IMG/VR virus record: IMGVR_UViG_3300025307_000067
Location: 1 to 53,390 of that record
From: a virus
Reading direction: 5' to 3' (one strand)
DNA length: 53,390 nt
Below, in pieces: positions 2,516 through 37,210 of the stretch (the stretch's first letter is position 1; each line of letters opens with the position of its first letter). The position numbers were made by a program, and so were the translations under genes. The notes below the pieces were generated by a model. The model searched no databases, had not been told where the DNA came from, and saw nothing but the letters and a program-made list of their open reading frames with translations.

Positions 2516-4042
2516 CTAATTATTTCCCCTCACAAAAGAAGAATCAATCACCGCTTGACCAAGCTCTATGCATTGTAGAATAGTCACCTGGTTGGCGAGG
2601 ATGCTCTTGTCGTCTCGCTGAACACTTACTCCAATCCTTGCCCTCATGGCTTCACGCTCACTATCCGTCTGATCCAAGCTAATCATCCCGTCAACATCAC
2701 CTAAGATAGCCACAGATTCTCCAATGTCCGATCTTTTCTTTGTCTTCCTCTCAATAGCTTCTTTACTGCCTGCTTGGAATGGCATTATCAATAAACTATG
2801 ATATTGTTGGGCCAGGGCCACTGCAAACCGGCGATTATCAACTATTGTATGTCTATCTGTTTGTCCGGGTTTCTTCATTAAGTCTGGAGAGTCTATAACA
2901 ATTACATCTGGGACGAACCCTTCCAGATGTTCCCAAACCTGAAGGGTGGCTTTTACCTCTGATATGCCAGCAGAATACATTGGCCAGTACTGGAATTTGA
3001 ATCTAGCTCCGCGAAGCTGCTTTGAAATCCCCTCTGCTTTTCTCCAGGCATTGCGCCATGTCAAGACGTCACATTTCCATTCTTCGGCCCAGGTTTCCAT
3101 TTGCCAACTCTTCTGTCCTCGACAGACCGCGCATGGTTTGTATCCTGGGTGCTCCTGGCCAAATATCGGTCTTGGTTCTTCTCCTTTGTACAAGGTTATG
3201 CCACAAGTTCGGTCGGGTCGATAGCAAGATCCATCTTGATTGAATTTGCAATCCCAGACCGGCATCCAGATTTTACCATCCTTTGGTGGGCGAATTGGCA
3301 TTGCACAGATGGATTGGATGAACCTGCGAGTCTCTTTTCTCTTATTCATTTCAAAACTGAATCTGGCTACATTCAATCTATTATAGAGGGCTTGATCTTG
3401 GATATAAGTACAAGCCCAGGATTTGCCTGCTTTGTAGGCCCCTACCAAGCCCCAAGCATCTTCTCTTACCATCGGTCCAAGTAGTCTGCCAAGATCTCCA
3501 GGAAGAGTGAATAATTCATCATCAGTTGTGAAGGCGTCTCTGACTGACTCCATATCTCTAAGCGGTTCACAACCCAAGGTCACTACTTTCTCTGGGGCGA
3601 TGAAATTGGCTACTGATTCTCTGGCTGCTAGGATGTTTCCTTGACCAAGTCTTTCTTCAAGGTCTTCTTTCAGGAGTGTGAGGGCACGCTCCTCAAAGTA
3701 TTGTTGTGCTTGGTCAAGGAGATATTCTTCATTGAACTCACCTTGTTCATAGCTTTCTGATATAGAACTGAGAAATTGACCGATAAGCTCAGAAAGATCT
3801 GAATCCATGCCGGCTCGACGGTTGGCTTCATACAAGTCCTGGATATGACCTTGAGGAGCGCGATCATATTGGGCCAAATATTCCAATGCCCACAAGGCCA
3901 CTTTTTGCATATAAGGTACAGTCAGATAGCGTGGTTTGTAAGCTAATGCTAGATTGCGGAGCACCCTATCAGAGATTATCATTCCAGTAAGGATCGAACG
4001 TTCGATCTGGGTGTCGGCTCTTTGGCGGGTCCAAGTGGTCAA
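2516..4042 (-). CDS. DnaB-like replicative helicase
   Basis: 508-residue RecA-fold ATPase resembling phage DnaB/gp41 helicases. An N-terminal helical region (about 1-150) is followed by the ATPase core with Walker A GAYKAGKSW and Walker B VIVIDSPD. A Cys-rich insertion between them (CKFNQDGSCYRPDRTC and CAVCRGQ) looks like a zinc-binding module not usual in DnaB. The start is a TTG at 4042 just after the upstream stop at 4046; an internal ATG 21 codons on is the alternative. Its partner is probably the TOPRIM primase at 9594-10484. Confidence 0.85.
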   Translation of the reverse strand: MTTWTRQRADTQIERSILTGMIISDRVLRNLALAYKPRYLTVPYMQKVALWALEYLAQYDRAPQGHIQDLYEANRRAGMDSDLSELIGQFLSSISESYEQGEFNEEYLLDQAQQYFEERALTLLKEDLEERLGQGNILAARESVANFIAPEKVVTLGCEPLRDMESVRDAFTTDDELFTLPGDLGRLLGPMVREDAWGLVGAYKAGKSWACTYIQDQALYNRLNVARFSFEMNKRKETRRFIQSICAMPIRPPKDGKIWMPVWDCKFNQDGSCYRPDRTCGITLYKGEEPRPIFGQEHPGYKPCAVCRGQKSWQMETWAEEWKCDVLTWRNAWRKAEGISKQLRGARFKFQYWPMYSAGISEVKATLQVWEHLEGFVPDVIVIDSPDLMKKPGQTDRHTIVDNRRFAVALAQQYHSLLIMPFQAGSKEAIERKTKKRSDIGESVAILGDVDGMISLDQTDSEREAMRARIGVSVQRDDKSILANQVTILQCIELGQAVIDSSFVRGNN

Positions 4043-4045
4043 GTT

Positions 4046-4759
4046 CTACTGTCCCAACCAAGCGTTAGCAGCATCCCATTCGATATCATTGATGTGTAAA
4101 TCTTTTGACATGGCTACAGTCGGACCTGGCTCTACCATCTTGCCAGATTCATGGGTGATGATACAACAATGAATTTCTTTGAGGAGTTGAATACCAGCCA
4201 TGTTCAAAGGAAAGGCCCCGAAATGATTCCATGCTCGGAAGTAGACGTAGTAATGAAGATAATCCATCTGAGCAATTTTATTGTAGATAATCCGAGTATC
4301 AATCATTCTGAGGCAGGGGATTGACACCGTATCTCTATCATGTGGCTCAATATATCTCTCTACATCATTGGGCAACCCTACAGGCATTACTGCCTGTTGA
4401 ACATAGAACCCCGCCTGGGCATAATGCTTGGCAGTTGCATGAATGGCCGGAGTTAAATACTGAGCATAGGTGTATGATTCATGCTCAGCAGGGGGTTCAG
4501 TGTTATACAAATATTCTCGAAGATATTTCTCAGCATCATCTTCGGTGCATGGCGACAAACAACCTGGTTTGGCCAATGGTACCAGTGGGCGCTCATGTGG
4601 ATGACTGATTTCCACTGAGCAAAAGTCCAGGGCCTTACGGAGCATCCCAGCCCTAGAGCCGCCATCCTTATGGTATTCGCGGCCTCTGGACATGATTTCC
4701 TGCATGATGCCCAACCATGCCTGCTCCAAAGTTCTAACTTTCAGATTTGTGGTAATCAT
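4046..4759 (-). CDS. thymidylate-synthase-like enzyme
   Basis: 237 residues with the thymidylate synthase/dCMP hydroxymethylase superfamily pattern. The catalytic cysteine lies in SIPCLRMID (Cys149), the conserved helix in FRAWNHFGAFPLNMAG (174-189), and the late strand in DLHINDIEW. Asn186 takes the place that reads uracil in thymidylate synthases; dCMP hydroxymethylases have Asp there, so dUMP is the likelier substrate. The protein is shorter than cellular ThyA (264 or more residues). The start overlaps the stop of the HAD-like gene (ATGA). It could be a plain dTMP synthase or make a modified pyrimidine. Confidence 0.72.
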   Translation of the reverse strand: MITTNLKVRTLEQAWLGIMQEIMSRGREYHKDGGSRAGMLRKALDFCSVEISHPHERPLVPLAKPGCLSPCTEDDAEKYLREYLYNTEPPAEHESYTYAQYLTPAIHATAKHYAQAGFYVQQAVMPVGLPNDVERYIEPHDRDTVSIPCLRMIDTRIIYNKIAQMDYLHYYVYFRAWNHFGAFPLNMAGIQLLKEIHCCIITHESGKMVEPGPTVAMSKDLHINDIEWDAANAWLGQ

Positions 4760-5190
4760 TTATCTTCCTTCCAGTACGGTTTGAAGTTTTGTAGAGTCAT
4801 TAAGGTATCAGAGAAATTGCCTAAAAATGGAATTGCTCGATCATCAATGTAAGCTACTGCTGGAACTTTTCGATTAGTAATCTTATGAATGAGATCGCCA
4901 ACACCATATTTGTAAGTCCAAGCAATTATTCCAGATGGATTGCGGGTGGTATGGATGACAATCTCATAATTTAGCATACATAGTTGTTTAAGAAAACCTA
5001 GAGCCCCAGGCATAGGATCACCCAGATGGTCAGGACCTTTCCAGCCTATGTATTCTGCTAATACTCCATCGAAATCAACACAGATGGTTTTTGGACTGGC
5101 TTTATAGCAATCGTAACACCAGTCTTCTTTATCTTCAATAGTGATTTGTTTTTCTGGTGAGATTTCTTTTTCACATTGTGAGCAGTTCAT
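4756..5190 (-). CDS. HAD-like phosphatase with N-terminal zinc ribbon
   Basis: 144 residues starting MNCSQCEKEI. The ATG at 5190 has AGGAGG 8-9 nt upstream and overlaps the stop of the gene before it (TGATG), so it is preferred over a longer frame. Two CxxC pairs (CSQC, CYDC) form a probable zinc ribbon. HAD motif I is DFDGVLAEY, the second motif HTTRN, and motif IV YIDDRAIPF. The substrate is unknown; placement beside a thymidylate-synthase-like gene suggests nucleotide metabolism (inference). Confidence 0.8.
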   Translation of the reverse strand: MNCSQCEKEISPEKQITIEDKEDWCYDCYKASPKTICVDFDGVLAEYIGWKGPDHLGDPMPGALGFLKQLCMLNYEIVIHTTRNPSGIIAWTYKYGVGDLIHKITNRKVPAVAYIDDRAIPFLGNFSDTLMTLQNFKPYWKEDK

Positions 5191-5594
5191 CAATACGGCC
5201 TCCTGACAATCGGTTCCAAACATTTCAATTCTGGCGTCCACGCCCCAAATTGTTTCACTACTTCCGGGAACTCTTGAATCGTATGTTTACGTAATGCCCA
5301 TGTCTCGTTTTGAGTTAGGGCGATGTGGAGGAGCTCATGGTAGAGTAGGGCTTGTTTATCATGATCGGAGGCACACTCCCACCATTCGGCCCATAAAATT
5401 ATTACATAATCAAAATCTGATAGGTGTTTCCATGGACCATGTGCAAGATGAGTCTGTCCAAGCCAGGTTGATTTTTTGGCTGATTTGACCAGATATTTGA
5501 TTTTGGCCTTACAAGCATCCATTAAAGGATTCTGTAAAAATCTGGCTCTGGCCAATTCTTCGACATCTTCTGGCGCATCGAGATAATCAGGCAT
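5190..5594 (-). CDS. putative phage metallopeptidase (HExxH)
   Basis: 134 residues. The zinc-peptidase motif HELLH lies in ALLYHELLHIALTQ, preceded by YVIILWAEWW. This matches the small putative phage metallopeptidase family, whose substrate is unknown. It ends in PIVRRPY, a relative of the R-[IVL]-P-Y tails seen in other proteins here. It overlaps its upstream neighbour by 8 nt. Confidence 0.75.
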   Translation of the reverse strand: MPDYLDAPEDVEELARARFLQNPLMDACKAKIKYLVKSAKKSTWLGQTHLAHGPWKHLSDFDYVIILWAEWWECASDHDKQALLYHELLHIALTQNETWALRKHTIQEFPEVVKQFGAWTPELKCLEPIVRRPY

Positions 5595-13230: not shown

Positions 13231-13479
13231 TTAATATTTAAGCATAATTTGGAAGAATTCTTGGGGTAGACAGAGATCTCCATCAAACATATTCTCCGAG
13301 GCTTCTTTCACATTATCAAGAAACGCCTTTCTTAACCAGCGCGCCATCTTTCTCTTCTCCCGGTTTGATTCCCGACGGATTTGTAATTGAGAGCGAAGAT
13401 GTATCTCAAGTTCATCTGGACTGAAAACACTAGGAAATCCAGTCCACTTCTCAGCAATTTGGTTAAGTCGAGATTTCAT
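13231..13479 (-). CDS. small charged protein
   Basis: 82 residues, rich in Arg, Glu and Lys, predicted helical. The start overlaps the helicase stop (ATGA) after AAGGAGAGG, so it is translated with the helicase. No recognisable motif. Confidence 0.65.
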   Translation of the reverse strand: MKSRLNQIAEKWTGFPSVFSPDELEIHLRSQLQIRRESNREKRKMARWLRKAFLDNVKEASENMFDGDLCLPQEFFQIMLKY

Positions 13480-16184
13480 TTCCTCTCCTTTTTCATTTTC
13501 TTGAGCAGTTCGCCCAGGATGGAATGTTTCTCAACTTCCTTGCCGTCGAGGACCTGGCTTAACACCTCAGCCTTTTCATCGAGCATAACGGCGATGTCTT
13601 CCTCAATGGTGTCCTCGGCTACCAGATAATAGACGTTAACGGTTTCTTCCTGGCCGATACGATGGGCGCGGTCCTCTGCCTGCTGGTGCTCGCCGGGCGT
13701 CCATCCCATTTCTACGAACGCTACGTGGGTAGCAGCGGTCAACGTGATACCTACGCCGGCAGCTTTCGTGTTGCCAACAAAGACCTTAATATCGGGGTCG
13801 GTTTGGAAATCGTCAACAGCCTTTTGACGTTGCTCCTGATTTTCCTTACCAGTGAGGCGAACCGCCTGCTTACCAAACTCGGCCATCAAAGCATCCACCA
13901 TCCAATGATGTACGGCAAACACGATGATCTTTTCATCCTGGTCTACAACGTCTCTGATCCAGGAGAGAGCGGATTGGAGCTTGCCACGGGCCGCCAGCTG
14001 CTTGAGTTTGCCAATGGCCACTAAAGCCTCTGCCGCAGACGCTCTCTCCGCCGCTTCTACACCTTCGGTACGCTCTAACCAACCCAGGAAGTCACGGACC
14101 GCTTCATTATACTCACTGCGGTTTTCCAACTCAAGAGGAACTACCGATCTGATTTTAGCCGGGAGGTCCTTGAGAACGTCCTTCTTGAGGCGGCGGATCA
14201 TTAAGGTCTTGGTGAGGATCTGGTGGAGTTCCTCAGTGTTGCTGGCACCAGAGTAATCCATGGCAAATCCATTAAACTTCGGAGCGCAGAACTTGTTGGC
14301 AAACTTGAACCAAGACGGAAACACCGTCGGATTCACTATGCTGATCGCATTGTAGAATTCGATGGGTCTATTGACAATAGGAGTACCGGACATAGCGATC
14401 ACATGCGGTACGCCTTTGGCCAGATCGCGAACGGCGAGCGTCCGTTGAGCCTTATTGTTTTTGACATAGTGGCTCTCATCAATGACCACCGCCTTAGGGT
14501 TGAGTTTCTTGAGGATCGGATTCCACTTTTTCAAGATGTCGTAATTGATGATGATCACGGAGACGGCTGGCAAAGCCAACTCTTGGCCATTGCCATTTGG
14601 GCTGCCAGACAGGATCATAACGGTTTCTTGTGAACGATCCATCCACTTGTAAGCCTCCCGCCGCCAATTCAGTTTCAAGCTGGCGGGGACTACGATAACT
14701 GCGGGTCTGGCTTCGGGATGGATTCTCAGCCATGCCAGGGTGATAATAGTTTTACCCAAGCCCATTTCATGTGCAACTAACGCTCTCCCTTGTCGACTTT
14801 CAAGGAAGTCAACGCTTTCTTTTTGAAAGGAGAATAGTTTTTCAAAGCCTGGTGGATTTTGGCTTAGTGCTTTAAGCGTAGAACAGTCCAGCCAAGGGCT
14901 TCCAATACTTTGGTTTTCTTGGCGTCTGTGATTTTGCTCTCCTTGCTGTTGTGGAGCCCACTGTCCACTTCTATTGCCACCATCGCGATCGGATCTGCGA
15001 AGTCGACTTTGTAGACAGTCGCGGCACTCGGGAAGGAAGCAATCACTGATTTGGTTTTCACCGGATATTCTCGGATGAACCCCTGCTCCCTCAGAAGACT
15101 GTCCAGATAACCGATAATGTCTGTCATTTCCTGTCCGTTGCCTCCCCGGAAATTCACTCCGTGTTTCTTTCTGGCCATCTCCAATCCCTTGAGATGTTTG
15201 CCCCTGACTTCTGGACGATGCATTGCTTCTTTGGTGGCTTTGGACACCTTCTCTCTCCAGGCTTCGTCTTGGGCATTCTCTATTAACTTCTCTCGGACTT
15301 TGGCCCTGACATCTGGGGTTCTCCCCTTTTCGAGGTTCTTTTTGTTCGATTCGTCTCTCACTTTGCTCGGCTTTCTGACGTAAACTCCCTTCGGCATTTT
15401 TCCTACCCCCATGGTTTTTAATTTCATTATATAATGGGCATAGGGAAAAATAAAGAATATTATTTATCTCTCCAGGTTTGTGCCCTTCCAGGTAGTTTTT
15501 CAGGTTGTCGTCCTGAGTGAACTGCCACTTCTCCAGGAGTTCCATGAGCTGGATGCTGGCGGGCACTTCCCAGAAGAACTTGTCAGGGTTCCAATGTCGG
15601 CTTGGGCAATCTTTGACTTCCTCTTTGATGGTTTCAAAATCTCTGTCTTTACGGTCCCAAAACAGCCGAATTTTTTCGTCCTCGAGCCATGCCGTCCTGG
15701 GCCGTAATGCTGGCGCAGCCATGGGCTCAGGCGCTTGAGCGCCGAGGTTTTTAATCCGTTCGAGGTCCTTAATATAGACCCTGGCTTGGGGGAGGATAGA
15801 CATCACCCGATTCAGGATTTCTTTACTGGCCGGGACGGACCAAAGGCGGGACCCGGTGAAGTCAAAGTTCCAACCTTGGATAGCCTTGATTTCTTTTCTG
15901 ATCGAACCGTCCTCATCGAACTTGAAACGGACGACGAAACGGTCGCCTTTGGCGTTTAGGGAAACGATGCTGGGGCCGTCATTCATGGCCGCAGCAATGA
16001 GGTTCGGGTCCATCTCCATATTGAGGCGAGCCAATTCTTGCTGGCAGATACCCCAATGGTTGGAGCATTCAGGCCCAATGCCTGCAGCGTAACTGTCTGG
16101 ATGGGTAAGTTCTCTGCCGCACCGCCTGCAGAAAACGTCCGGTCGCCTGTCAAGCGTTTCTATGACGGCTTTATCGGGGTTCAT
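13476..16184 (-). CDS. SNF2/HARP-like helicase interrupted by an in-frame insertion carrying a homing endonuclease gene
   Basis: 902 codons. An N-terminal zinc motif (CRRCGREL) and HARP-like repeats run to about residue 235. The SNF2 motor occupies about 447-902, with LFSFQKESVDFL, Walker A HEMGLGKT, Walker B VIDESHY, SGTPIVN, and the C-terminal GVGITLTAATHVAF and AEDRAHRIGQ motifs. Between them, 15470-14847 (624 nt, 208 codons) reads as Gln/Arg/Ser-rich sequence unlike either side because the endonuclease gene is encoded there in another frame. Both junctions end in a Pro-Gly pair, so the uninterrupted protein probably read KPG-FEKLF. The product is a motor with a 208-residue disordered linker or two separately translated halves. 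Confidence 0.82.
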   Translation of the reverse strand: MNPDKAVIETLDRRPDVFCRRCGRELTHPDSYAAGIGPECSNHWGICQQELARLNMEMDPNLIAAAMNDGPSIVSLNAKGDRFVVRFKFDEDGSIRKEIKAIQGWNFDFTGSRLWSVPASKEILNRVMSILPQARVYIKDLERIKNLGAQAPEPMAAPALRPRTAWLEDEKIRLFWDRKDRDFETIKEEVKDCPSRHWNPDKFFWEVPASIQLMELLEKWQFTQDDNLKNYLEGHKPGEINNILYFSLCPLYNEIKNHGGRKNAEGSLRQKAEQSERRIEQKEPRKGENPRCQGQSPREVNRECPRRSLEREGVQSHQRSNASSRSQGQTSQGIGDGQKETRSEFPGRQRTGNDRHYRLSGQSSEGAGVHPRISGENQISDCFLPECRDCLQSRLRRSDRDGGNRSGQWAPQQQGEQNHRRQENQSIGSPWLDCSTLKALSQNPPGFEKLFSFQKESVDFLESRQGRALVAHEMGLGKTIITLAWLRIHPEARPAVIVVPASLKLNWRREAYKWMDRSQETVMILSGSPNGNGQELALPAVSVIIINYDILKKWNPILKKLNPKAVVIDESHYVKNNKAQRTLAVRDLAKGVPHVIAMSGTPIVNRPIEFYNAISIVNPTVFPSWFKFANKFCAPKFNGFAMDYSGASNTEELHQILTKTLMIRRLKKDVLKDLPAKIRSVVPLELENRSEYNEAVRDFLGWLERTEGVEAAERASAAEALVAIGKLKQLAARGKLQSALSWIRDVVDQDEKIIVFAVHHWMVDALMAEFGKQAVRLTGKENQEQRQKAVDDFQTDPDIKVFVGNTKAAGVGITLTAATHVAFVEMGWTPGEHQQAEDRAHRIGQEETVNVYYLVAEDTIEEDIAVMLDEKAEVLSQVLDGKEVEKHSILGELLKKMKKERK
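14864..15397 (-). CDS. EDxHD/Vsr-like homing endonuclease nested in the helicase gene
   Basis: 177 residues starting MPKGVYVRKPSKV. The nested promoter predicts a transcript start near 15419, so the ATG at 15397 (AGGA upstream) is preferred over frames opening at 15427. Basic NUMOD-like segments (VREKLIENAQDEAWREKVSKA, HRPEVRGKHLKGLEMARKKHG) precede a nuclease core with VDFADP, IEVDSGLH and KKTKVLEALGWTVLRLKH, the E-x-D-x-x-x-H arrangement of Vsr/EDxHD homing enzymes. It occupies nearly the whole insertion, leaving no room for a group I intron core. Confidence 0.82.
   Translation of the reverse strand: MPKGVYVRKPSKVRDESNKKNLEKGRTPDVRAKVREKLIENAQDEAWREKVSKATKEAMHRPEVRGKHLKGLEMARKKHGVNFRGGNGQEMTDIIGYLDSLLREQGFIREYPVKTKSVIASFPSAATVYKVDFADPIAMVAIEVDSGLHNSKESKITDAKKTKVLEALGWTVLRLKH
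15426..15462 (-). promoter_or_regulatory. bipartite promoter of the nested endonuclease gene
   Basis: ATATTCTTTA, 19 nt, TATAAT on the minus strand, inside the helicase frame. Same spacing as the other five copies; the -35-side box differs at its last base. Confidence 0.65.
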
Positions 16185-25165: not shown

Positions 25166-25518
25166 GGGGGTGTAATGGTTTCGACGGTGGCAGGAAATCA
25201 TAGTTGCGTTCCGGGGCCAACTTCCGTTAATGTTGGACATGGCACACTTGCCGACTCTTACTACCAACTGAAAGCGGCTTAAGGCACGCTTTCCGTTCGT
25301 ACTGATGATTTCAGATAGTCAGATGCGGGCGTCAAACCTAATCTGGATAGGAGATATGATGTTGCTGCATCGTCATTATCCGAAGTTTAGCGCAGCTGGT
25401 CTGGCAGGAGTTGATCTCAGAGCAATATTGCCGGGCGAGACGGAGTCTGAGATTATGAATGTAGATGCTATGGTAGAATGTTCTCCGGACCCGGGTTCGA
25501 CTCCCGGCACCTCCACCA
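25166..25518 (+). ncRNA. ssrA: tmRNA (ssrA), tag ADSYYQLKAA
   Basis: 353 nt. The 5' end GGGGGUGUAAUGGUUUCGACG is the tmRNA signature (split GGGGGUG / UAAUGGUUUCGACG). The 3' end has the T arm CCGGG-TTCGACT-CCCGG and an encoded ACCA. The acceptor stem pairs GGGGGUG (25166-25172) with CACCUCC (25508-25514) and includes the G3-U70 pair read by alanyl-tRNA synthetase. The tag frame runs from the resume codon GCC at 25250 to TAA at 25280-25282, encoding ADSYYQLKAA. Host tags usually end LAA, so KAA may change recognition by ClpXP or SspB. It should rescue stalled ribosomes during infection. Confidence 0.93.
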
Positions 25519-33631: not shown

Positions 33632-36600
33632 GTGTCAGTGCCGGCTAAAAAATCTAGAAAACCAGGTTATGTTATCTATGGTGGCCAAGGCTCCGGCAAC
33701 TTTGGCCATGCCGGTAGACCTACCCAAGCTAACCTAACCCAGTCTGATACCTCTACTCTCCTACTCGTACCATCTATCAATATCTATGCTAAACTGGCCC
33801 GTGTGGACCCCACCCGCACATTAGTCCTCCGTAATAACTTCGTTGCTCAGATGACGGCCCGTTTTAGAAAACTCAAAGCCATTATACAGAAAGCTGTCGT
33901 TGATGACGATTGCTTTGGTATCGCCAAGCCTGAATCACAAGGAAGAAGGATTGTGGTGCAGGCTGATCTCACCACCCGGGGTGGCAGATCATTCGACTTT
34001 CCTACCTCACAAGAGAAATCAGCCGCCTTCCTGGAGTGGCTCCGAACCCAGGAACAAGCTGGAATATTAGAAACAGTAAGAATCCCCCAGGTAGGCACTG
34101 GTATAGAAAGTGCCTGGACCGACGTTTTCATAAAAGATAGTTACCAGCGCGGTGTCCAACGAGCCAGAGACGAACTCCTCCGCGGAGGTTATGCTGTTCC
34201 ATCTATGGAAGTTACTGGAGGGATATCCGCGAGCATGATGCAACCCATGCATATAAATCGCCTCGGCGTCGCATTTTCACGCACCTTCGATGGACTCAAA
34301 GGTATAACGAGCGCGATGGATACTCAAATCAGTCACGTCCTCACCAAGGGCTTGGCAGATGGAGACGGCCAGGCTACTATTGCCAAGAAACTCCTCGCCA
34401 CCATCGACGGAAACAACGCCGGTACGTTGGGGATAACGGATTCACTTGGACGCTTTATCCCGGCGGAGCGTCGGGCCGCTATGCTGGCTAGGACAGAGGT
34501 CATACGAGCCCATGCGCAAGGCACACTCCAGGAATTTAAGAACTGGGGTGTTGCTGGAGTTGATGTATTGGCTGAGTGGGTAACTGCTGGCTTCAATGTA
34601 TGTCCCGAGTGTCAAGAACTGGCTGAAAAAGGACCATACAAGATTGAAGAAGCGTGGGATATGCTGCCAGCACATCCCCATTGCTTTATTAGCCCTATGA
34701 TTCCGATTTATACATCAACTGGTTGGAGACCAATTGGTACAGTTCAAGTTGGGGATATGGTTCTTACTCATAAAGGGAGATTCAAGAGAGTATATGGTCT
34801 GCCGAGGACTTTGAAACAAACACCAGAAGTTGTTCATTTTAGTCTTCGAGGTTTTGATAACGATGGTGTGACAATGACAACAAACCATCCAGTGTTGGTT
34901 TCGAATAAATTGTTGCCTCCGCATTGGAAAGAAGCTGGAAAATGTACTCTTGAAGATAGGATAGTTTTATTTGCGAGTAGATGTAAAAGATGCGATAAAA
35001 AAATCCCTTGGTTTAGAACTTATTGTTCTGGGAGCTGTTGTAGTTCTGACAATGCAGAAAGGCAATGGGCTGATCCTGCTCATAGAGAAAATGTTAGTAA
35101 AAAGAACAGAGAAGCTAATTTGAGACAATATGCTTCTGGCGAGAGAGACAGATTTGCCACGAAGAAAGCCAACGAAAAAATTCGGAAAATGATTAAAGAT
35201 GGAACTTGGGGAACTTGGATGTGTGATGATTTCTTTAAGAAGGTTTTCCAAGTTACCAATACTCCAGAACAAATAGCTGTCAACTCTGAGAGAATGAAGA
35301 AAAAAAATCCAATGCATGACCCCGCTATTGTTGCGAAAGCGACAGCTTCTCTTATTAAAACTCTTGAGTTGCATCCAGAGAAAAGATTGAATGCAAGAAT
35401 GGCCAAGCATCGCAAAAGCAATAAGATGACAGGCATTGAACAACTAATGGCTCAGCTTCTTGATCGTCTTGGAATCGAATATATTTTTCAATATCCAATT
35501 TTGAGATATGATGTTGATTTTGCTATACCAACTCTGAAGATTGCAATCGAGTGCGATGGTGAATACTGGCATCAAGATAAACAGAAGGATTTGATCAGAC
35601 AAAAGAGGATTGAAGCAGAAGGTTGGTTTGTATTAAGATATACTGAAACAAAGATTAATCAGTGCTTTGATGAAATTGAAGACGAAGTTGTGAGAGTTTT
35701 AGCTAATCATAATGGTGATTATGAATTTGTTGGTCACCCTATCAAGAAAATTGAAAGAAGAACAGTTACAAAGCCATTGACTTTATATAATCTTGCTGTT
35801 GAGGAAGATGAATCATATATAGCAAGGGGATTAGTGGTTCACAATTGCCGCTGTGCCTGGCTGGCAAAACCAATAGATGGCAAGGAGAAGACCCCAGTTG
35901 AGGTGGCGCCGGAAGATATAGTCAGTATCATTTCTCCAGAAGATTCAGTTTTTGATAGCATTGCCAACAACTATCTCGAGTCTCCATCATCTATACAAGG
36001 CAGAGATAGAACCCTCGAAGGTCTGGCCGAAACTCAAGGATTTACTCAGCTTCCTAAAGTAGTCTCTGGACAGGAATTTGAAGATATAGTTCAGCAGCAA
36101 GGAATGAAGGAACTTTTTCGCGGGGTTCAGAACAGTAATATCGCTAATATGTTTGCTACCGGTGACTATTATGGTGCAACCGGAGCCTTTGGAAGCGGTA
36201 CATACGCTGCTATGGAGCAGGATTTGGCCAAGTTGTATATGGCCGGGGATAATGCAGTATTAATGAGAATGGGCCTACCAGCAGATGTCAAGATTGGTAA
36301 GTATGCTGATGTCCTTGCAAGTATGAAGCAAGATACAACTTTTGAAAAGGCTGGCAGTAAGGTATTTATGCAAGGATTTAAAGAAAACAGTGAGTTCCTG
36401 GTAGAAAAAGGCAAGGTCATTGAATCTGTTACGAAGGATGTAGGTAGATGGGCGGTGGTTAATGGTTATGATGCTATCCAAGCCCCAGATCAGATGATTA
36501 TATTGAATCGCAGTAAGGTATTGGTCAGCAATGATCTTCTTTCTAGGGAAGGAAAAGTTATTAGATTGCTCCCCGAAACCCCAGCCGCTGGTGTGGTGAA

Positions 36601-37210
36601 GTGGAAGCCGGTTATGAGCAAGGCAGAGGCAGAGAAGTTTATTGAAGGTAGTAAGTATACAGAGGACGTTTATCATGTGACTTATGAGCAGAATGCGAAA
36701 GCAATTATGAATGAAGGTTTTGATTTAGAAAAGAAAGGTTTCGGAAGAGTTTTTGGTGAAGGTGTTTATGCTGGAATGGATTTAGAAACAAAGAGTATTT
36801 ATAGAATAATGGCAGGAGGATTAAAAACTGAGAGCTTAACTCTAAAAGTTAAAGTAGATAATCCATTATTTTTAAGCGGTAGTAAGATGTATGGAATAGA
36901 TAAGACTAATATTTATGAAGACATAGTAAATAAGAAACATCAGTTTATGAAAGAGATTAATAAGAATGATATTAAATTAAGTAACCAGGCAGATATAAAA
37001 TTTCCTGGAAATCCAAGTGGAAAAAGACAATGGCTAAATGAGAATGGTTTTGTAGGATATAGCGAATTGGATTCAAAAGCATTTACTATGGCAGTTAAAG
37101 ATTTCGGATATGATTCGATAATAATAGAAGAAAAAGGCGGGCCAACTAAAATACTAGGTGGAAATCAAATTATTACTTTTGATCCTAAAAAGGTTGTGGT
37201 GATAAAATGA
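33632..37210 (+). CDS. MuF-type head protein with an intein and two C-terminal ADP-ribosyltransferase-like domains
   Basis: 1192 codons from a GTG (AAGGAG upstream); 804 residues after removal of the 388-residue intein. The MuF domain (about 160-350 plus 739-750) has ARTEVIRAHAQGTLQEF and the closing CPECQELAEKG ... HPH/CRCAW motif. Its C-terminal domains are toxin-like. The first (about 805-970) has KELFRGVQ and GAFGSGTYAAMEQDLAKLY. The second (about 1010-1190) has VYHVTYEQNAKAIMNEGF, FGEGVYAGMD and FGYDSIIIEEKGG. Both resemble ADP-ribosyltransferase folds (H/R, S/Y, E pattern). MuF proteins with effector tails are injected with phage DNA or used as polymorphic toxins. Confidence 0.82.
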   Translation: MSVPAKKSRKPGYVIYGGQGSGNFGHAGRPTQANLTQSDTSTLLLVPSINIYAKLARVDPTRTLVLRNNFVAQMTARFRKLKAIIQKAVVDDDCFGIAKPESQGRRIVVQADLTTRGGRSFDFPTSQEKSAAFLEWLRTQEQAGILETVRIPQVGTGIESAWTDVFIKDSYQRGVQRARDELLRGGYAVPSMEVTGGISASMMQPMHINRLGVAFSRTFDGLKGITSAMDTQISHVLTKGLADGDGQATIAKKLLATIDGNNAGTLGITDSLGRFIPAERRAAMLARTEVIRAHAQGTLQEFKNWGVAGVDVLAEWVTAGFNVCPECQELAEKGPYKIEEAWDMLPAHPHCFISPMIPIYTSTGWRPIGTVQVGDMVLTHKGRFKRVYGLPRTLKQTPEVVHFSLRGFDNDGVTMTTNHPVLVSNKLLPPHWKEAGKCTLEDRIVLFASRCKRCDKKIPWFRTYCSGSCCSSDNAERQWADPAHRENVSKKNREANLRQYASGERDRFATKKANEKIRKMIKDGTWGTWMCDDFFKKVFQVTNTPEQIAVNSERMKKKNPMHDPAIVAKATASLIKTLELHPEKRLNARMAKHRKSNKMTGIEQLMAQLLDRLGIEYIFQYPILRYDVDFAIPTLKIAIECDGEYWHQDKQKDLIRQKRIEAEGWFVLRYTETKINQCFDEIEDEVVRVLANHNGDYEFVGHPIKKIERRTVTKPLTLYNLAVEEDESYIARGLVVHNCRCAWLAKPIDGKEKTPVEVAPEDIVSIISPEDSVFDSIANNYLESPSSIQGRDRTLEGLAETQGFTQLPKVVSGQEFEDIVQQQGMKELFRGVQNSNIANMFATGDYYGATGAFGSGTYAAMEQDLAKLYMAGDNAVLMRMGLPADVKIGKYADVLASMKQDTTFEKAGSKVFMQGFKENSEFLVEKGKVIESVTKDVGRWAVVNGYDAIQAPDQMIILNRSKVLVSNDLLSREGKVIRLLPETPAAGVVKWKPVMSKAEAEKFIEGSKYTEDVYHVTYEQNAKAIMNEGFDLEKKGFGRVFGEGVYAGMDLETKSIYRIMAGGLKTESLTLKVKVDNPLFLSGSKMYGIDKTNIYEDIVNKKHQFMKEINKNDIKLSNQADIKFPGNPSGKRQWLNENGFVGYSELDSKAFTMAVKDFGYDSIIIEEKGGPTKILGGNQIITFDPKKVVVIK
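34682..35845 (+). mobile_element. intein with an EDxHD/Vsr-like homing nuclease
   Basis: 388 residues inserted in the conserved HPH/CRC motif of the MuF domain. It begins with Cys (CFISPMIPIYTSTGWRPIGT), has block B TTNHPVLVS, and ends LVVHN before Cys+1. The central part has a Cys-rich segment (CKRCDKKIPW, CSGSC), NUMOD-like basic repeats, and a nuclease core YDVDFAIPTL, IECDGEYWH, RIEAEGWFVLRYTE. Canonical splice residues (Cys1, His-Asn, Cys+1) suggest it is active. Confidence 0.9.

Follow-up and report, generated by a model that had tools for sequence, protein, structure and literature searches.

What allows a phage helicase gene to carry a second gene in another reading frame and still remain open from end to end? 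The question is raised by a SNF2-family helicase in the window, i.e., the whole stretch of 53,390 nucleotides analysed here (IMG/VR virus record IMGVR_UViG_3300025307_000067). Its frame is uninterrupted throughout, including an insertion of ~0.6 kb between the N-terminal part and the motor (Table 1). We hold it probable that the insertion is a dual-coding homing endonuclease gene residing in the helicase linker, without a splicing carrier, and that the helicase frame is still read through it.

Insertion site and openness of the helicase frame

Table 1 Features of the helicase locus in the window
Feature	Position	Strand	Basis
SNF2-family helicase ORF, 902 aa	13476..16184	-	SNF2-rel_dom 9e-39, Helicase_C 4.2e-16, DUF6011 8.7e-10
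Helicase N-terminal part: DUF6011 zinc ribbon, HARP-like repeats	15475..16184	-	92% DNA identity to L004
SNF2 motor, motifs intact	13476..14846	-	domain matches; dN/dS vs L004
Insertion, read in the helicase frame as a polar linker of ~209 residues (residues ~237-446)	14847..15474	-	stop-free; no ATG/GTG/TTG
Flank 3' of the endonuclease gene, 49% DNA identity to L004 vs ~90% beyond	14769..14846	-	comparison with L004
Putative homing endonuclease gene, 177 aa, +1 frame relative to the helicase	14864..15397	-	DUF559 match, fold, comparison
Shine-Dalgarno-like GGGGGTAGG, upstream of ATG 15397	15402..15410	-	sequence
-35-like hexamer TTTATT	15449..15454	-	relatives TTGATT, TTGACT, TTGACC
-10-like hexamer TATAAT, 17-nt spacer TTTCCCTATGCCCATTA	15426..15431	-	spacer kept in L020, L127, nearly in L212
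Predicted RNA hairpin, promoter spacer (15434-15452) with SD region (15395-15412)	15395..15452	-	pairing probability 0.79; z about -1.7 to -2

The first-pass annotation had anticipated an uninterrupted homologue with the junction KPG-FEKLF. Such a homologue was found on the 5.2-kb contig of a related phage (L004, ~90% identical), where the helicase comprises 703 aa; the anticipated junction was not seen, L004 reading KP-KQVDNVNLPAGLQ-LYKFQ. The sequence of L004 at the insertion site is KPKQVDNVNLPAGLQLYKFQ, and the net gain is therefore 199 codons. The insertion had earlier been delimited as 14847-15470, with 208 codons and no stop: its stop-free character stands, its boundaries had to be adjusted. 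The 5' boundary is at about 15475, up to which DNA identity to L004 is 92%; starting at 14770, it amounts to 89%. The 3' boundary is less distinct, with an uncertainty of a few tens of bases, as a ~78-nt tract before motif I has diverged from L004. From this comparison the tract is a candidate for coconversion during homing or, alternatively, for an older diverged 3' exon. The overprinting would have been refuted by sequence resembling the linker in homologues that lack the endonuclease; none was found in L004, L005 and the other uninterrupted homologues inspected. The element is patchily distributed, missing in L004 in spite of its ~90% identity and yet found in divergent phages, which fits homing. 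Its location in a variable interdomain linker counts against this, because homing endonucleases usually target conserved sites. The label ‘HARP-like’ for the repeats on the N-terminal side is a call made by eye.

Contig L003 is 100% identical to the window across 11.2 kb, and three further lineages are arranged alike; as far as sequence data can tell, an assembly artefact of a single record is thereby excluded as the source of the nested arrangement. In these lineages (L020-L022, L127 and L023) the element occupies the same site between the helicase N-terminal part and the motor, lies in the +1 frame, and is stop-free in the helicase frame with 14-19 stops in the third frame; the endonucleases are about 48-55% identical to that of the window. 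L021 differs from L020 by two changes in the element region, one of them a nonsense mutation in the endonuclease (at about 4135 of L021), and its helicase frame is still open; here the linker outlives the enzyme. In L212 and L213 the endonuclease (59-63% identical to that of L127) is free-standing directly upstream of a motor-only SNF2 helicase, the two genes overlapping by ATGA in L213, and the frame corresponding to the helicase frame holds 12 stops. This suggests that the element is tied to the 5' side of the motor, transparency being needed only where an N-terminal domain puts this spot inside an ORF. The comparative sequences are nearly all metagenomic contigs.

The openness of the window helicase frame was evaluated by permuting synonymous codons of the endonuclease. 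Across the endonuclease the helicase frame contains 0 stops vs 8.9 expected, and each of 20,000 shuffles introduced at least one stop there (P<5e-5); the third frame contains 13 stops vs 12.7 expected. Judged by this shuffling, chance is excluded, and the open helicase frame is kept by selection.

The encoded linker is low in V, I, L, M, F, W and Y (0.15 vs 0.33), and AlphaFold2 assigned pLDDT of about 23-37 to helicase residues 236-445, with ordered parts on either side, in agreement with the insertion as first delimited. A full-length helicase carrying a disordered linker of ~209 residues is the likeliest product; translation of the fusion is inferred, in the absence of expression data.

The endonuclease and its putative control region

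An EDxHD/Vsr-like endonuclease overprinted in another frame of the open helicase was proposed in the first-pass annotation, and profile, structural and comparative evidence now supports it. Besides the form listed in Table 1, a longer one of 187 aa can be read on the same strand from 15427 (ORF 14864-15427), offset by 757 nt from the helicase start. The start at ATG 15397 (MPKGVYVR) is more likely; it is kept in all close relatives, each with an SD upstream, and the predicted model shows no structure for the first 17 residues of the longer form.

The product matches the DUF559 profile (E 3.4e-7), and its fold is predicted with high confidence (mean pLDDT 85.6). Its catalytic part resembles I-Bth0305I (3r3p_A; Z 7.8, 71 aligned residues, 2.4 A), Vsr (1cw0_A; Z 7.3, 74 aligned, 1.7 A) and a Neisseria DUF559-like protein (Z 7.6). 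A profile built of 37 relatives matches two of these solved structures by sequence, namely 3hrl (4e-13) and, weakly, 3r3p (I-Bth0305I, E 0.0018), while Foldseek alone gave no endonuclease match below E 0.001. All fold Z-scores are <8 and hence moderate, and the EDxHD assignment therefore rests on fold plus profile and not on a proven active site. Residues Y139, D142, E153, D155, H159 and D168 (numbered as in the 187-aa form) are invariant across the 37 relatives; a one-to-one match to the I-Bth0305I motif was not established. The identity of the enzyme as a DUF559/EDxHD (Vsr-like) homing endonuclease is thus supported by the predicted structure and the profiles, and site-specific cleavage and homing are inferred without cleavage data.

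Upstream of the gene we identified a promoter-like block of sigma-70 type, TTTATT-TTTCCCTATGCCCATTA-TATAAT, with fixed 17-nt spacing. It recurs in relatives as TTGATT...TATAAT (L020), TTGACT...TATAAG (L127) and TTGACC-TTTTCCTATACCCATTA-TAGTAT (L212), and is only partly kept in L023. The 18-mer TTTCCCTATGCCCATTAT was found in only five viral contigs, every one of which has this element. The earlier suggestion that the endonuclease has its own promoter agrees with this conserved site, promoter activity remaining inferred. The peptide DFSLCPLYN, read from this block in the host frame, was considered as a splicing or other protein motif and was ruled out because nearly the same DNA block is situated outside any ORF in L212; the block matches -35 and -10 promoter elements at fixed 17-nt spacing.

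Folding predictions for the long helicase mRNA place the SD in a hairpin that would mask it; the promoter spacer itself would form the 5' arm, so that the endonuclease probably uses its own upstream promoter. A transcript beginning at the predicted promoter would be without the 5' arm, and its SD is predicted to be more exposed. The pairing probability between spacer and SD (0.79 in the window) amounts to 0.76 in L020 and 0.54 in L127, despite differing sequences on the SD side. Several T4 enzymes, e.g., I-TevI, have an RBS that is hidden by a hairpin on long transcripts and freed via an internal promoter (PMC2988022), and by analogy the promoter-like block and hairpin suggest a T4-style control of the endonuclease. 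This switch is only inferred, because the hairpin z-scores are modest, the window -35 (TTTATT) is weak, falling below the promoter-scan threshold, and no hairpin is predicted in L023; in L212 the hairpin is weak.

Two other loci of the window were recorded. A MuF-like minor head protein ORF of 1192 aa (33632-37210, +) contains an apparent intein with a Vsr/DUF559 endonuclease, which gives this phage two enzymes of the superfamily, although the one in the intein is encoded in frame; the C-terminal region of the ORF is weakly PARP/ADP-ribosyltransferase-like. The virus record also has a complete tmRNA gene (25166-25518, +) with the tag ADSYYQLKAA.

Relatives hidden inside inteins

Using tblastn against named phages we detected the enzyme in 40 records, the host genes being nearly all annotated as helicase, coil-containing or hypothetical protein. 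In the five examined (MR14, phi673, CP-T1, 159E43-1b and K391) it is encoded out of frame within an intein at motif II (DEC-FPAGT...VVHN-CHH). A profile search of viral and genome contigs, together with the named-phage cases, yielded 81 distinct proteins or loci. In 79 of them the host frame contains 0 stops over the match vs ~393 expected, whereas the third frame holds 864 vs 795 expected. About 74 of the 79 open loci lie within inteins; there the enzyme is encoded +1 to the intein frame, which has no stop. On these counts openness belongs to the endonuclease gene family over deep divergence, and not to one insertion. The remaining two loci, L083 and L105, have no continuous host ORF: in the former the enzyme is placed between the halves of a split intein, in the latter it is a free-standing gene upstream of a helicase. 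As only these two are not open, openness accompanies a continuous host ORF.

The ~74 endonuclease-hiding inteins (among L014-L018 and L024-L112) are mostly inserted at the DEC/HH motif II of SF2 helicases, and in the public annotations examined for intein-hosted cases the entire ORF is labelled ‘helicase’. A GAGG ribosome-site-like sequence was noticed by eye directly upstream of the start of the hidden endonuclease in L014, L016, L017 and L018, within codons for the conserved DEVL of the intein. The helicase of L024 (3010-6945) has two intein-like inserts, one hiding the endonuclease and a second downstream that is apparently of LAGLIDADG type (by eye). No description of out-of-frame endonucleases inside inteins was found in the open-access literature searched; papers elsewhere may mention them.

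Intein-nested and intein-less forms differ in their sites. The former mostly interrupt a catalytic motif, where splicing is needed, and the latter lie in a tolerant linker, where it is not. In the phylogenetic tree the window, L020, L023, L127, L212 and L213 form one clade (support 100/100), placed beside intein-nested enzymes with 94/81 on a long branch; root and placement are unsure. As the exon-nested group also includes the free-standing L212 and L213, the direction of change is unresolved. A derivation of the exon-nested form from inteins, which we considered, is likewise not settled by this tree.

Dassa et al. are said to have described, in 2009, split inteins with Vsr-like enzymes between their halves (‘fractured genes’). 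The split intein of the L083 helicase (2929-5358), with the same endonuclease overlapping both halves, presumably represents this arrangement, and it is a possible route from hidden-endonuclease inteins to fractured genes. Unlike fractured genes, the window gene is hidden in a continuous ORF, out of frame.

Read-through, its alternatives and published systems

Whether the helicase is made with a long linker or in separate halves was left undecided in the first-pass annotation; the linker product is now favoured and separate halves are disfavoured. Endonuclease genes that divide their hosts are known from T4-type phages, e.g., mobE in Aeh1 nrdA and mobA in T4 gene 60 (PMC2988022). The window resembles these free-standing enzymes in having an intron-less endonuclease gene within a replication/repair gene, but they split the host gene into separate coding regions, whereas here the host frame runs through. 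A comparable ‘genes in pieces’ expression, with the motor started inside or after the endonuclease, is improbable in our judgement. It would agree with L213 and L212, where the motor has a gene of its own downstream of a related endonuclease, and with in-frame ATGs near the endonuclease stop in L127 and L023. In the window, however, the helicase frame has neither a stop nor any ATG, GTG or TTG after codon 214 until the Walker A ATG is reached (codon 474), so that separate translation of the motor is unlikely, and a division into ORFs with own starts, as in mobE/nrdA, is not seen. Nor would there be a reason for a stop-free frame, and truly separate cases do carry stops.

An unrecognised RNA or protein splicing element that excises the insert has an even smaller chance of being correct. 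Related endonucleases do reside inside inteins, and element-specific sequence is kept at both ends. However, as claimed at the outset, neither a group I intron nor an intein is recognisable: Rfam gave no group I/II intron match and no ribozyme core was found; intein models did not match the helicases of the window, L020, L127 and L023, while intein-hosted relatives score clearly; and the intein motifs (N-terminal C/S splicing block, C-terminal HN + C/S/T) are missing from the elements of the window and L020-L023. The endonuclease ORF nearly fills the insert, leaving <100 nt. Moreover, the site is a tolerant interdomain linker, whereas intein-hosted relatives are mostly in catalytic motif II, and conservation of the 5' block outside any ORF in L212 speaks against a splicing peptide. 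Splicing data are not available. A -1 frameshift from the endonuclease into the motor at C-TTA-AAG was also considered and ruled out, this sequence not being kept in L127 or L023 (by eye).

The least credible alternative, a recent insertion into a decaying helicase with a frame open by luck or not yet decayed, would accord with the polymorphism of the insertion (missing in L004), which may be recent in this phage, but it is contradicted by the family-wide openness, by the intact frame of L021 with its dead endonuclease, and by the intact motifs and low dN/dS of the motor vs L004 (0.05 from motif I on; 0.15 for the N-terminal part), with the caveat that part of the measured motor history is older than the insertion.

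We therefore retain read-through of the helicase frame as the preferred reading. On this view a homing endonuclease gene, together with a control region of its own, would reside in a phage SNF2 helicase at the flexible linker that joins the N-terminal part to the motor. Its DNA would be ‘frame-transparent’, the helicase frame reading it as a stop-free, polar, disordered linker, and we propose that the insert survives because one full-length helicase is still made. The endonuclease would be a separate product of the +1 frame, translated from ATG 15397 by means of the SD preceding it, and homing into uninterrupted alleles such as that of L004 would copy the enzyme gene plus some flank.

The closest published case is the ShiLan domain, an HNH endonuclease concealed in another frame of phage DNA methylase genes (PMC11855218; also Pacc40 gp60). 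Both inserts comprise ~200 codons, are stop-free in the host frame and are filled by an endonuclease in an alternative frame; both lack an intein or intron signature, leave a host protein predicted with the unspliced insert and are patchily distributed. Nuclease family, frame and host gene differ: ShiLan is an HNH enzyme that has zinc fingers, uses the third frame and lies among conserved residues of the methylase, whereas the window has a DUF559/EDxHD enzyme in the +1 frame and in a variable SNF2 helicase interdomain linker, with an SD and a conserved promoter-like block; no SD is reported for ShiLan (PMC11855218). Inteins hosting hidden enzymes are not mentioned there, and the portion available contains no test for selected openness (PMC11855218). 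For the window element, openness is shown to be selected, with free-standing genes as controls. The catalytic domain itself is Vsr/restriction-endonuclease-like, as in the EDxHD/Vsr-like homing endonucleases of phages (I-Bth0305I, PDB 3R3P).

On balance, and with more reserve than for the window itself, we favour the existence of a large unrecognised class of dual-coding DUF559/EDxHD homing endonucleases that are selected to be stop-free in the host frame. Most would be out of frame in inteins, mostly at catalytic motif II of phage SF2 helicases; the window lineage would be intein-less in an exon linker; and lost openness would lead to split inteins (L083) or free-standing genes (L105, L212 and L213). 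Expression would be switched by a promoter with a spacer that also serves as one arm of the RBS-hiding hairpin. The published single case of an HNH enzyme hidden in a methylase would then cease to be an oddity and become part of a general strategy: by holding a second frame open, a selfish gene can spare the gene it occupies without any splicing. The free-standing, exon-nested, intein-nested and split-intein forms of one family constitute an evolutionary series that brings its own natural controls and suggests how split inteins may arise. For annotation this is a warning that long ‘disordered’ inserts and the middles of inteins in phage genes can conceal a second gene.
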